DNA of 48,099 nucleotides from NCBI GenBank assembly GCA_023382715.1, contig JAHDWP010000025.1, positions 1 through 48,099 on the forward strand. The letters are read 5' to 3'. The notes below the pieces were generated by a model that saw only the letters and a program-made list of their open reading frames with translations, had not been told where the DNA came from and did no database searches. Below are positions 33,121 to 37,128 of the stretch, piece after piece. Origin of the DNA: Anaerolineae bacterium. Lineage in GTDB: Bacteria; Chloroflexota; Anaerolineae; Aggregatilineales; Aggregatilineaceae. Position 1 is the stretch's first letter; each line of letters begins with the position of its first letter. Position numbers and translations under genes: made by a program.

Positions 33121-33954
33121 ATGTACCACGCCACAGGATCGTTCAGCGGACTGAAGAACACAGAGATTTTCACCCAGCACTGGCTGCCGGGTGGCGCGTC
33201 GCGCGCGATTGTCCTGATCGCGCACGGCTACGCCGAGCACAGCGGGCGCTATGCGCACGTCGCCGCGCACCTGGTGGCGCACGGATTCGCCGTCTACGCC
33301 CTGGATCACCGGGGGCACGGGCGATCGGGCGGGCCGCGCGTGGCCGTGCGCGACTTCGCCGAGTTCGTCGCCGACCTGCGCACCTACTTCGACGCCATCC
33401 GCGCCGAGCACCCCGCCCTGCCCATCTTTCTCTACGGACACAGCATGGGGTCGCTGATCAGCCTGCTCTTTACGCTGCGCTGGCAGGATGAGCTGGCCGG
33501 GCTGATCACGACCGGCACCGCGTTGCGCCCCGCCGGGGCCAACCCCGTGCTGGCGCCGATCGTGCGCGCGCTGAGCCGGATCGTGCCTTCGGTTGCGCTG
33601 GTGCCGCCCATCGCCGCCGCCGCGATCAGCCGTGATCCCCAGGTCGTCGCGCAGTATCTGGACGATCCGCTGGTGCACCTGGGCAAGATACGCCTGGGGC
33701 TGGCCAGCGCCCTGCTGCACGCCAGCCGGACGTGTACCGAGCGGCTGGGCGATCTGCGCCTGCCCTACCTGGCTCTGCACGGTGGCGCCGATATCATCAC
33801 CTGGCCGGCTGGTGCGGCGATCATCCGCGAGCGTTCCGGCTCGCCCGATACGACCGTCAGGATATTCGACGGGCTGTTCCATGAAGTTCACAACGAGCCG
33901 GAGCAGGCCGAGGTGCTGCGCACCGTGACGGATTGGCTGGACGCACATTTGTGA
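33121..33954 (+). CDS. Alpha/beta hydrolase, monoacylglycerol-lipase-like
   Basis: A 277-residue serine hydrolase. The lipase-type oxyanion motif is IAHGYAEHSGRY, and GHGRSGGPRVAV is the usual lysophospholipase/monoglyceride-lipase string. The nucleophile elbow is GHSMGS. The acid lies in the GGADIITWPAGA region (Asp) and the catalytic His in GLFHEVHNE. The EHSGRY pattern is characteristic of monoacylglycerol lipases and lysophospholipases, so release of fatty acids from monoglycerides is likely. No signal peptide is present. The chosen ATG has GGAAGGA before it. Confidence 0.9.
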   Translation: MYHATGSFSGLKNTEIFTQHWLPGGASRAIVLIAHGYAEHSGRYAHVAAHLVAHGFAVYALDHRGHGRSGGPRVAVRDFAEFVADLRTYFDAIRAEHPALPIFLYGHSMGSLISLLFTLRWQDELAGLITTGTALRPAGANPVLAPIVRALSRIVPSVALVPPIAAAAISRDPQVVAQYLDDPLVHLGKIRLGLASALLHASRTCTERLGDLRLPYLALHGGADIITWPAGAAIIRERSGSPDTTVRIFDGLFHEVHNEPEQAEVLRTVTDWLDAHL

Positions 33955-34012
33955 GGCGCGCCGCCCGCGAGAATCCGGGCACACGCTTCTGCTAGCCTGA
34001 TTCTTAAAGCGG

Positions 34013-34041
34013 TTGACAGGCTGTCCAGGGCGTGGTATACT
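34013..34041 (+). promoter_or_regulatory. Strong sigma70-type promoter of the candidate non-coding RNA
   Basis: TTGACA (34013-34018) and TATACT (34036-34041) are 17 bp apart. This is one of the best promoters in the window. The expected start is about 34048. The next protein gene with certain function is 1.6 kb downstream, beyond a strong terminator. Confidence 0.9.
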
Positions 34042-34047
34042 GACGAG

Positions 34048-34470
34048 GCTCGCGGGAGTCTGCGGGCGGTTCGCCCTGGCAGAGGGTCGCCGGACAAACC
34101 GGCGGCGCGCCCGGCGAAGCAAGAGCATCCGCCCGATGCTCAACGGAACAACAGCGGAAAGGCAAGCGTAATGTTACCCGGCTCGTCTTTGACGACCAGC
34201 GAATTGAACAGCGCGGACGAACCCCCCGGCGATCAACAGCACGCCATCCTGGGGTCTGGTTTCGAACGACCAAGTGTCCAACCGAATTTGCGCTTTGCGC
34301 TGCCGGCTTGCGCTGTTGTGTCCGTCTTTACCAGCGCCGCGTTCAGCGGAATAAGGTCTCACGAGCGTCGTGGGGCGGGGGGCTGCCTATAGGGTAGCTC
34401 GCCGTTCCGAGGCTGCGACCCCTCAACCGGGGCGTGGGACCACCTGAAAAGGTTCCACGCCCCGGTTTTT
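34048..34470 (+). ncRNA. Candidate structured non-coding RNA, about 425 nt, family unknown
   Basis: A near-consensus promoter and a 17-bp terminator bound about 425 nt with clear folding potential. Local hairpins are GGGCG/CGCCC (34064-34076), CGCCGG/CCGGCG (34088-34104), GAGCATC/GATGCTC (34123-34141) and GCTGCC/GGTAGC (34382-34398). The 5' end can pair with the 3' end just before the terminator: 34050-34055 with 34413-34418, possibly extended by 34045-34048 with 34421-34424 if transcription starts a little early. The size and end-pairing recall RNase P RNA or tmRNA. I find none of the conserved RNase P core strings, no tmRNA tag or tRNA-like ends, and no SRP or 6S signature. An internal 73-codon frame (34171-34392, with GGAAAGG before its ATG) has codon use unlike the neighbours and could instead be a small protein. 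Confidence 0.6.
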
Positions 34471-34472
34471 GC
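34421..34472 (+). terminator. Very strong Rho-independent terminator of the candidate RNA
   Basis: A 17-bp stem with one G-U pair (34425-34441 with 34451-34467) and a 9-nt loop is followed by TTTTTGCGTTTG. It is among the strongest hairpins in the window. Confidence 0.93.
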
Positions 34473-34554
34473 GTTTGATCGCCAGGCGACGCACCTGGAG
34501 GGGATCGGCCAACCCTGGCTGACACTGCCTAAGCGCCATAAGGGAGGTGCGAGA

Positions 34555-34701
34555 ATGAGCCGTAGCACTCACCACAGCATCAGGATGATGCGCGTTGCGC
34601 GGTGCCGGGCATTTGCCGGGCAGGTGAGCGCCATTCTTGCCGCCAACCGGCAGATCCGCGCCGGCGCGCGCTGGCTGACGAGTGAGGGAGAGACATGGTA
34701 G
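34555..34701 (+). CDS. Possible small basic protein, 48 residues
   Basis: The ATG is preceded by AAGGGAGGTG, an almost ideal Shine-Dalgarno sequence at good distance, which is why I list it. The product is Arg-rich (MSRSTHHSIRMMRVARCRAF...) and ends LTSEGETW. No homologue is recognised. It starts 85 bp after the terminator of the candidate RNA. Its stop overlaps the start of the next small frame, suggesting translational coupling. Codon use differs somewhat from the neighbours, and the frame could be fortuitous. Confidence 0.4.
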   Translation: MSRSTHHSIRMMRVARCRAFAGQVSAILAANRQIRAGARWLTSEGETW

Positions 34702-34853
34702 GCGAATGCACAGAGTTCTCCGCCAGGCCGTGCGCTGCACGGACCGCCTCGCAGCCGCTCCCCCAGGCAGTGGGTACACTGTTCGGGGGCGGCGGATGCC
34801 ACTCAACCGAACTGACACGTGACGAGCGAAACGGACATCGGCCCCGCCAGTAA
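34695..34853 (+). CDS. Possible small protein, 52 residues
   Basis: The ATG overlaps the end of the previous small frame and is preceded by GAGGGAGAG, again a strong ribosome-binding site. The product contains four cysteines, including CTEFSARPC and GGGGCHSTE, which could bind metal, but no known family is recognised. With the frame before it this would be a two-gene operon of tiny proteins. It could also be non-coding; confidence is low. Confidence 0.35.
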   Translation: MVGECTEFSARPCAARTASQPLPQAVGTLFGGGGCHSTELTRDERNGHRPRQ

Positions 34854-35171
34854 CTGGTAGACACGGGCGCTGCGACAGAGGATACGCGAGACAGTAGAGG
34901 AAACGTCGCCCGCCTGAAAGAACACAGAGGGGCTTTACCAAGCTGAGATCAACGACTGCCGCAGAGAGTCTGGCGGTCTGGGTGGGAAGCCGTGTGCGGA
35001 CAATGGGTGTTGGCTCCTTCCCACACAGGCCGCCCCTCCTGCGGCATAAGGTGCGCGGCCCATGAGCCGCCCGCCTGCGTTCATCGTCCGGCAGGTCGCC
35101 TTCGCGCCCTGGAGTGAGGAGAGCGGGCAAATGGGGAGTACGGGCTGGAGCTAAACGTTCTCATTGATATT
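34854..35171. other. Stretch without a recognisable gene
   Basis: One inverted pair, GTGGGAAG (about 34980) with CTTCCCAC (about 35021), could form a stem-loop. A 30-codon frame (35062-35154) exists but nothing supports it. I see no promoter of good quality. Confidence 0.5.
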
Positions 35172-35351
35172 ATGGAATTCGCTTTGGTGGGGGTGCTCGG
35201 TTTCATGCCGCTCAGCGTCATCCATTGGTCGCACCGGCAGCGGCGCAAACGTGACGTGCCCCCCTTACCTCGCCCATTCTGGCGGGCAGCCGTCACGACA
35301 AAACTGACTTTGCTCGTCGCCGCGATGACTAGCTGGCTGGCGGAGTTGTAG
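35172..35351 (+). CDS. Possible small membrane protein, 59 residues
   Basis: The frame starts MEFALVGVLGFMPLSVIHW, a likely transmembrane helix. A positive loop (SHRQRRKRD) and a second hydrophobic segment near the end (TKLTLLVAAMTSWLAEL) follow. That pattern, two helices joined by a basic loop, is plausible for a small membrane protein with both ends outside. The ribosome-binding site is weak and no family is recognised. Confidence 0.4.
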   Translation: MEFALVGVLGFMPLSVIHWSHRQRRKRDVPPLPRPFWRAAVTTKLTLLVAAMTSWLAEL

Positions 35352-35359
35352 GGGGCGCT

Positions 35360-35535
35360 TGGCCGGGCGCTGCAGAGCAGCGCCCACTGTAGGGTTCTGC
35401 TACGGAATCCGGCCATAGGGTTTTACCATTTGTCAGTGGCAACACGGGCGACCGTGTTGCGCCAGAAGCCGGTTGACCTCACCCCCGGCCCCCTCTCCAC
35501 ACGCAGAGAGGGGAATGAGGGGTGAGGTAAATCCG
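35360..35535. repeat. Cluster of three hairpins, the last a copy of the modular repeat
   Basis: Hairpin one is GGGCGCTGC-AGA-GCAGCGCCC (35365-35385, 9 bp). Hairpin two is GCAACACGG with CCGTGTTGC (35439-35460, 9 bp). The third begins GGTTGACCTCACCCCCGG at 35471 and ends GAGGGGTGAGGTAAA at about 35531. Its ends match those of the elements at 20819 and 47970, with a shorter interior. Confidence 0.8.
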
Positions 35536-35658
35536 CCCACTTCCCGCGCCGACTCGGTAACCCTACAGCGGGGGACACCGGGCAGCGCCCCTACGCGCGA
35601 CGCAGAGACGCCTTGCCAGGCGCCCTTTCTCCGCACGCCATAACCGCACGAGGCACTC

Positions 35659-37128
35659 ATGGACGCCAGCACGATTCTGCAACTGGGCTACCCGTCGGGC
35701 AAAGCCGTCGGGCTGGCCCTGCGCGCCTATGACGCGGCCCTGGCCCAGGGCACGCCCGAAGCTGACGCGCTGGACGACCTGGCCGGCGTGCTGGCCGCGC
35801 CGGAAGATTTTGCGGACGATCCGCTCTACGGCGCGCTGGCCGCGGCACTGATCGCCGCTCAGCGCCGCGACGCGGAGTCCGCTGGCGGTTACGATCTGGG
35901 CAGCGCCGCCCCCTACCGCGTGTGGGGCGCGCAGGCTATTGAGGCGGGCGCGCTGGATCAGATGAAGCGCGCCGTGCGCCTGCCCGTCGCCGTCAAGGGC
36001 GCGCTGATGCCGGACGCCCACCAGGGCTACGGTCTGCCCATCGGCGGCGTGCTGGCCACCGACAACAGCGTCATCCCCTACGCGGTCGGCGTGGACATCG
36101 CCTGCCGCATGCGCATGACCATCTTCAACGCCTCTCCGCAGATTCTCGACCAGCGGCGCGAGCGCTTCCGCACAGTGCTGGAGGAACAGACTGTCTTCAG
36201 CGCGGGCGGTGAGTGGAATCCCCCGCGCCAGCACGAGGTGCTGGACGACCCGGCCTGGGACGAGCACCCGGCCGCCCGCCGCTTCCGCGACGTGGCCTGG
36301 CGGCAGCTTGGCACCAGCGGCTCTGGCAACCATTTCGTCGAGTTCGGCGCGCTGACCGTGCACGCGGCCATTGACTCGCCGCTGGGCCGCATTCCGCCGG
36401 GCACGTACCTGGCCCTGCTCAGTCACAGCGGCAGCCGCCGCTTCGGCTACGAGATGGCCGAGCATTACACGAAGGTGGCGATGAGCCTGCGCGCCGCCCT
36501 GCCCAAAGATTTCCGCCACCTGGCCTGGCTAGGCCTGGACGAGGAAGCGGGCGCGGAATACTGGGCGGCCATGACCCTGGCCGGACGGTACGCCAGCGCC
36601 AACCACGCCGTCATCCACCGCCAGATCGTGGACGCGCTGCGCATCCCGGTGCTGGGCGGCATCGAGAATCACCACAACTTCGCCTGGAAGGAAGTGGTAG
36701 ACGGCCAGGAAGTGATCGTCCACCGCAAGGGCGCGACACCCGCCGGCAAGGACGTGCTGGGCGTCATCCCCGGCAGCATGAGCGCGCCCGGCTTCATCGT
36801 GCGCGGCCTGGGCAACCCGGATTCGCTGTCCAGCGCAGCGCACGGCGCGGGCCGCCGCATGAGCCGCAAGGAAGCCTTCAGCCGCTTCGACTGGGAGGGC
36901 GTGACGCGGGCGCTGACCGCGCAGGGGGTCGAGCTGATCTCCGGCGGGCTGGACGAAGCGCCCGACGCCTACAAGGACATCCGCCAGGTGATGGCCGACC
37001 AGGCCGACCTGGTGGTGGCGCTGGCCGAGTTCCAGCCGCGCCTGGTCAAGATGGACCCGGCGGGCAGGCCGCGCTACGGCGGCGGAGGCGGCAGGAAGGG
37101 TAAGAAGAAGGGGCGCAGGCGGCGGTAG
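35659..37128 (+). CDS. rtcB: RtcB-family RNA ligase
   Basis: A 489-residue GTP- and manganese-dependent RNA ligase of the RtcB fold, which joins 2',3'-cyclic-phosphate and 5'-OH RNA ends. Active-site features are visible: PDAHQGYGLPIGGVLA, GVDIACRMR with the metal-binding Cys149, SGNHFVEFG, LSHSGSRRFGYEMA, and HRKGATPAGKDV containing His355, the expected guanylylation site. IPGSMSAPGFIVRG and AAHGAGRRMSRKEA are further RtcB motifs. The sequence belongs to a longer, divergent branch rather than canonical E. coli RtcB, and ends in a basic GRKGKKKGRRRR tail that may bind RNA. A strong terminator follows, so it is the last gene of its unit. RNA repair is the likely role. Confidence 0.93.
   Translation: MDASTILQLGYPSGKAVGLALRAYDAALAQGTPEADALDDLAGVLAAPEDFADDPLYGALAAALIAAQRRDAESAGGYDLGSAAPYRVWGAQAIEAGALDQMKRAVRLPVAVKGALMPDAHQGYGLPIGGVLATDNSVIPYAVGVDIACRMRMTIFNASPQILDQRRERFRTVLEEQTVFSAGGEWNPPRQHEVLDDPAWDEHPAARRFRDVAWRQLGTSGSGNHFVEFGALTVHAAIDSPLGRIPPGTYLALLSHSGSRRFGYEMAEHYTKVAMSLRAALPKDFRHLAWLGLDEEAGAEYWAAMTLAGRYASANHAVIHRQIVDALRIPVLGGIENHHNFAWKEVVDGQEVIVHRKGATPAGKDVLGVIPGSMSAPGFIVRGLGNPDSLSSAAHGAGRRMSRKEAFSRFDWEGVTRALTAQGVELISGGLDEAPDAYKDIRQVMADQADLVVALAEFQPRLVKMDPAGRPRYGGGGGRKGKKKGRRRR

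Follow-up and report, generated by a model that had tools for sequence, protein, structure and literature searches.

Does a stretch of about 425 nt with its own promoter and terminator encode a new structured RNA? This question was raised by the initial annotation of positions 34013-34472 of a 48,099-nt stretch of Anaerolineae DNA (the window). Comparison with related genomes suggests another answer: with a probability of roughly two in three, the locus is a terminator/antiterminator attenuator with a leader ORF, placed behind a decayed regulator gene. Sequence comparison shows the region to be the transcription unit of an HTH regulator gene. Within the genus of the window this gene has lost its coding part by deletion; what survives is the promoter, the start region of ORF2 with ORF2 itself, and an RNA switch at the 3′ end. 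The candidate RNA stands in part: RNA-level constraint without an Rfam match was found, but not a self-contained 425-nt RNA, and the structured element with comparative support is the last ~115 nt (34355-34470). The features referred to below are the following.

34013-34041, + strand: sigma-70-type promoter (TTGACA 34013-34018, 17 nt, TATACT 34036-34041)
34042-34171, + strand: what an internal deletion has left of an excisionase-type HTH gene of ~70 aa, from alignment with 11 intact family genes
34156-34162, + strand: GGAAAGG, a Shine-Dalgarno-like site for ORF2 that falls within the final codons of the HTH gene
34171-34392, + strand: ORF2, leader-type frame of 73 codons, its start overlapping the HTH stop (TAATG)
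34355-34363, + strand: putative antiterminator strand GGTCTCACG (segment 1), near the ORF2 end, pairing with 34433-34441
34365-34416, + strand: hairpin inside the antiterminator loop (core 34372-34408)
34419-34432, + strand: small CCCC/GGGG hairpin (34419-34422/34429-34432), stacked on the antiterminator stem
34425-34470, + strand: terminator hairpin, 17 bp and T run, its 5′ arm common to the antiterminator
34973-35037, + strand: "hp", an RNA motif with covariation, its 15-bp stem carrying the conserved loop GUGCGG..GGGUGUUGGCU
35118-35351, + strand: ORF4, a small-protein frame conserved in the family; a hydrophobic stretch is visible by eye
35659-37128, + strand: rtcB (RNA ligase; Pfam RtcB, 6.1e-78), co-directional

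The annotation had recognised no known RNA family at the locus, and a search of Rfam 15 agreed, giving chance-level matches only; over the whole window, two tRNAs were the only matches above the gathering cut-off. A tRNA search called none at the locus. RNase P RNA (RF00010) and tmRNA (RF00023) were rejected, as the covariance models, and for tmRNA also ARAGORN, gave no match at the locus; canonical copies of the two lie on contigs C56 and C46 of the same genome.

The terminator and its predicted antiterminator strand

Both ends of the proposed transcript were found as annotated. The promoter matches 11 of 12 consensus positions and has a TG before its second hexamer, and the pattern TTGAC-N15..20-T[AG]nnnT precedes 56 of 63 HTH loci (0.029 expected per sequence). 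The 17-bp terminator stem is formed by 34425-34441 and 34451-34467, followed by T (run 34466-34470). Part of its 5′ arm, CGTGGGACC (34433-34441), is complementary to segment 1. A scan recovered a hairpin with a T-rich tail in 53 of 59 loci. Of the six others, three (G016, G017 and G006) were placed by sequence, and three (G067, G041 and G071, the last with its hairpin beyond the scan range) were left out of the segment-1 test. The U-tract is short and interrupted in several relatives. An automated terminator scan of 33900-35700, which demands a loop of 3-8 and 5 T in the 8 bases after the stem, found none and did not call the window hairpin.

Complementarity of segment 1 to its own arm was measured in 44 of 56 genomes (12 or 13 near-identical congeners are omitted from this test and from those on nascent folds, ORF ends and spacers). 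It reached p<=0.05 in 25 of the 44 representatives and was not significant in 19; taken as a set, the own segment-1/arm pairs beat 5000 of 5000 permuted sets. When 53 other terminator-like hairpins were used as a control, 8 gave p<=0.05, and all of these turned out to be the locus hairpin slipped past the filter. Among loci from outside the order, G119, G241, G349 and G381 passed, and G223, G306 and G249 failed.

Folding of the nascent chain pointed the same way. For 49 representatives, including five that do not belong to the order, a partition function gave 9.5 expected segment-1:arm pairs; the value dropped to 7.3 when arms were swapped (12 permutations) and to 6.9 when the upstream sequence was shuffled (8 rounds). 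Local fragments, cut 12 nt before segment 1 and ending at the arm, were folded for the 14 family loci: in every one the minimum free energy fold paired 7-9 of the 9 bases of segment 1 with the arm, and once the 3′ arm was added to these fragments the terminator was predicted to form. The window's own fragment (34340-34445) is predicted to fold into a closed antiterminator around two hairpins, with a z-score of −4.24 and none of 200 shuffles as good; the 34372-34408 core of the first hairpin keeps 13 of its 14 pairs in each of two relatives.

Compensatory changes were then counted. RNAalifold, applied to 13 family fragments hand-cut from segment 1 to the arm (G006, near-identical to G017, was omitted), returned the segment 1:arm stem, with both-sided changes in 4 of 8 pairs. 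Over the 13 loci, 93.6% of cells in this stem and the small hairpin can pair, compared to 31-58.3% when the strands are slid. The 4 pairs with both-sided changes compare with 0.8 in shuffles, 1 of 500 being as high; three of five measures exceeded all but 1 of 500 shuffles and the covariation score all but 12. The number of further pair types in the 13 family loci was not above shuffles (165 of 500 as high). Picking both strands by motif only, tried in 28 genomes, gave both elements in 16 and not in 12; compensated changes were seen in the 16 loci, one of which (G241) was mis-picked.

Within the genus, differences from the window amount to 4-6% in the segment-1 region and 2% in the terminator per congener, and to 14-21% in mid-ORF2, the comparison rate at synonymous rtcB sites being 18-22%. 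The locus has an intrinsic terminator upstream of the downstream gene(s), a mutually exclusive antiterminator, as judged from predicted structure and covariation, and a leader ORF overlapping the switching strand, segment 1 lying inside ORF2. We regard the anatomy of the switch as well supported and propose, with moderate confidence, that it may function as an attenuator.

The deleted HTH gene

In 11 of 18 family genomes, the same kind of promoter drives an HTH gene of 69-72 aa, a representative of which matched Pfam HTH_17 and an NCBIfam excisionase family. The stop of this gene in relatives overlaps, abuts or lies within 10 nt of ORF2, and a hairpin of the same type follows. What remains of it in the window are recognisable C-terminal codons (..MLNGTTAERQA*, 34121-34171) and a 5′ remnant, the latter significant in congener G004 (p 0.003), intermediate in congener G001 (p 0.29 and 0.010 by two statistics) and not significant in the window alone (p 0.28-0.42). 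At E<=1e-12 the gene had no match in five genomes of the window's genus. The window's genome (G000), G001 and G004 keep the promoter, the last HTH codons and ORF2 up to the terminator, the middle of the gene being deleted. BLAST of 101 genomes, the window's own included, gave matches in 10: the match was full length in G004 and covered 367 of 463 bases in G001, and shorter pieces were matched in G002, in five other family members and in G020. No such HTH locus was found in G008 and G010 at E<=1e-12; G008 and G060 gave weaker matches only and were left out of the study, and two loci (L032 in G048, L036 in G057) were too short for the locus comparison.

With its HTH gene dead here and the unit missing in congeners G002 and G003, the switch may be a relic in this genus, i. 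e. a decaying, inactivated unit giving a non-functional transcript with an ordinary terminator. The gene is internally deleted in all three congeners that keep the unit, the unit is gone from the 1.3 kb behind the lipase gene in G002 and G003, no ORF3 (see below) of at least 60 aa was recovered in the genus, and over the 5′ part (34042-34115) two congeners show differences of 32% and 43% as well as indels. Even drift would however be expected of a relic, whereas the 3′ part of ORF2 with segment 1 and the terminator differ by 2-6% only, against 18-22% at synonymous rtcB sites, and the promoter and ORF2 start region were kept. We consider this explanation unlikely. The lipase-like gene upstream (window 33121-33954) is internally deleted in G004 (L070), and no match to it was obtained at E<=1e-50 in G004 (L070) or G001 (L071); the upstream flank is therefore decaying in the genus as well.

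A reading at the DNA level is that segment 1 and the terminator arms are repeated operator sites for the HTH protein, with no RNA switch. They are indeed inverted repeats with a conserved core, CGTGRGAC, beside the HTH gene. In the window's genus, however, the gene is lost and yet these bases are the most conserved of the unit, and between families the repeat sequence varies while the HTH helix is nearly fixed. Binding by another HTH protein is possible; we find operator sites very improbable.

ORF2 and the fold of the whole region

All 14 family loci with the unit have ORF2 as an open frame; GAAAGG occupies the Shine-Dalgarno position in 13 of these, G009 being without it, and in G001 a frameshift lies near the ORF2 end. 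The distance from that end to the terminator stem is 32 nt in the window. More generally, when the longest ORF that follows the HTH stop was taken in each of 47 representatives, its end fell 18-60 nt ahead of the hairpin in 43, where 5.4 were expected from shuffled spacers; in the 43 its length ranges from 46 to 187 codons. The four exceptions are G086, G062, G018 and G054. In family f46 (four genomes) the HTH frame itself extends to 22-33 nt before the hairpin.

Differences between ORF2 sequences fall evenly on the three codon positions (126/106/130 in 10 pairs), compared to 14/9/98 for the HTH gene in 9 of these pairs, and the pooled pN/pS is 0.66 for ORF2 against 0.08 for the HTH gene; four of the ten pairs share G024, and the G029-G034 pair is diverged. 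Even differences combined with a fixed end point mean that the frame and its end are kept, and the peptide is nearly free. No Pfam match above the cut-off was obtained for ORF2 of the window and two relatives, and no regulatory codon run was seen by eye in the translations.

These counts bear on the possibility that ORF2 is a genuine small protein gene followed by a plain terminator, its RSH/QSH end codons being conserved as protein. Its length of 65-77 codons in 14 of 14 family loci, the M.PGS..SELDS-like start in most of them, the Shine-Dalgarno-like site and the overlapping start codon would all suit such a gene. Against it stand the absence of codon-position bias with the contrast in pN/pS, the spread of lengths over 46-187 codons, the missing Pfam match, and the RSH codons, which change in step with the terminator arm. 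Conservation of the 34171-34392 frame as protein had been named as an observation that would speak against an RNA; the frame was open throughout the family, but showed no codon-position bias in 10 pairs. We rejected ORF2 as a conserved protein, and we give the small protein gene a very slim chance.

We also rejected the idea that the ORF2 spacer is generally structured, as it is no more so than HTH coding sequence (spacers: mean z −1.34, n = 44, z < −2 in 16; coding sequences: mean z −1.29, n = 43, z < −2 in 13). The window spacer, from the HTH stop to 25 nt before the terminator, has a z-score of about +0.2.

The four local hairpins of the annotation are all present (34088-34104, 34123-34141, 34180-34197 and 34372-34408). 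Over 34040-34475 the fold energy beats 100 of 100 dinucleotide shuffles (z −4.18; minus strand, −2.35), a value partly owed to the terminator, since it falls to −2.64 without it (1 of 100 shuffles as good). The helix said to pair the 5′ and 3′ ends (13 pairs, 34043-34057/34357-34371) is not conserved: 2 and 5 of its pairs are broken in two relatives keeping the unit, and when the terminator is left out of the fold, three outer pairs only remain, in a shifted register (34045-34047/34358-34360). The covariation check proposed for the RNA gave a divided result: the end helix shows no double changes, and the 3′ switch covaries. The T-loop-like TTCGAAC (34261-34267) is present but not conserved, reading TTCGGAA or TTCGGAC in two relatives that keep the unit. 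The suggested Y-RNA/RtcB association is left without its partner, because Ro60/TROVE, matched in 3 of 21 genomes searched, had no match in the window's own genome. A free-standing structured RNA of about 425 nt, for all its promoter, terminator and whole-region z of −4.18, is hardly credible when its global fold and 5′ third are not conserved in relatives, where the region is homologous to an mRNA.

Downstream genes, known systems and a proposed mechanism

On the same strand downstream, 48 of 56 HTH loci carry ORF3 (about 90 aa), a representative of which had no Pfam or NCBIfam match. The pattern WFE..ALD.LHD..GWLEDIIYTAQETI.EI was noted in ORF3 of L059-L066 and of order-level loci, downstream of the attenuator. 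In the window ORF4 is found; that of a relative gave no Pfam or NCBIfam match. ORF4 (35131-35351) is read, by eye, in the −1 frame relative to ATGGGGAGT, which in several relatives is the micro-ORF MGSCC*. As there is no ATG, GTG or TTG at the front of the window's ORF4, the frame may be reached by a −1 slip on GGGG or begin at an unusual start. A hairpin, TTCGGTCGGGTGGCGGATGCCACTCGACCGAA ("z", window 34782-34811), occurs in 13 family loci and is partly degraded in the window. A near-palindromic repeat, CCTCACCCCC...GGGGTGAGG, lies between genes before rtcB (35471-35533), and a similar one was seen behind the lipase gene in G003.

The gene rtcB, reported 1.2 kb downstream, does start there (35659), and its linkage is real in the family: it follows, on one contig and one strand with the unit, in all 10 assessable family loci with an intact HTH gene (G014 is on split contigs), in G000 and G001, and in 3 of 3 HTH loci of family f4. 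Families f2, f7 and f8 showed no such linkage, the two genes mostly lying on separate contigs there. In Salmonella, the yrlBA genes encode Y-like RNAs. The rsr-yrlBA-rtcBA RNA-repair operon there (PMC7790460) resembles our locus in that RNA elements precede rtcB; the window's genome differs in having no TROVE/Ro60 match and no tRNA called at the locus.

About 500 nt downstream of the switch, and separate from it, lies hp, a candidate for a second RNA family. Both-sided changes affect 10 of the 15 pairs of its stem in 13 sequences, which 0 of 500 shuffles reached, and it had no Rfam match. Of 101 relatives, 21 gave a match to its model, in most cases at the HTH locus; G002 and G003, in which the HTH unit is gone, carry it about 60 nt upstream of rtcB. 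In a class-wide draw of 298 genomes the model matched 3, all of them from this order, under filters that miss weak matches. In a joint alignment of 24 hand-picked hp sequences the stems were out of register outside family f1, and it was excluded from counting. GTGTTGG is invariant in these 24 loops; in G018, G062, G071 and G077 it directly precedes a segment-1-like TCTCA (GGTGTTGGTCTCA). Its presence in both contexts hints at a shared origin or factor.

Three strands make up the switch: segment 1 (34355-34363), the 5′ arm (34425-34441) and the 3′ arm (34451-34467). The 5′ arm can pair either with segment 1, giving an antiterminator that encloses two hairpins, or with the 3′ arm, giving the terminator. 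We propose that a ribosome moving through the ORF2 end would keep segment 1 open, so that the terminator forms and transcription stops; if ORF2 were poorly translated or the ribosome lagged, segment 1 would capture the 5′ arm and allow read-through into ORF3 in most relatives, and into ORF4 and rtcB in the window. We infer this direction of control and its signal; ORF4 and rtcB as the controlled genes are a guess from position. With 9 bp against 17 bp, the antiterminator is far weaker than the terminator, so that control would have to be kinetic, and as the ORF2 sequence is nearly free and its end point fixed, the signal would be translation as such and not one amino acid.

In the textbook layout of trp and his leaders, an ORF overlaps the antiterminator strand and a terminator competes with it, an arrangement that our locus shares. 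What attenuators with a leader ORF normally sense is a single amino acid or a single drug. ORF2 differs from them in being long (46-187 codons) with no regulatory codon run seen, in being nearly free in amino-acid sequence, and in following a full regulator gene instead of opening the mRNA. The ermC-type leader (PMC2965389) senses a general slowdown of translation; the proposed ORF2 switch would resemble it in sensing translation in general and not one amino acid, and a regulatory codon run is dispensable in a sensor of this kind. However, ermC controls translation, whereas the terminator of our locus points to control of transcription, for which there is no known inducer. The rimP leader shares a highly conserved terminator stem sequence, but no visible antiterminator is reported for it (PMC2965389), whereas here one coevolves with the stem. 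Finally, the ilvB-II motif of Corynebacterium (PMC10272879) is similar in that an upstream ORF is linked to attenuation of the gene behind; it too first came up when structured RNAs were being sought, before a uORF explained it.

A wider reading can be put forward only tentatively, our doubts outweighing our confidence: the locus may represent an undescribed Anaerolineae class of attenuators, in which an ORF fixed in position and free in sequence, behind a small HTH gene, makes an RNA switch report translation as such and gates a small-protein gene downstream, with rtcB also gated in two families; RNA repair would then rise when translation drops. A literature search of partial coverage gave no description of this locus among the matches listed. 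A decayed gene that keeps its promoter and terminator can mimic a large structured RNA. If the attenuator reading is true, an attenuator kept across several families with a freely drifting ORF would be a generic sensor of translation. That it precedes rtcB in two families suggests a link from failing translation to RNA repair, which would take another route than RtcR, the regulator known from Salmonella.
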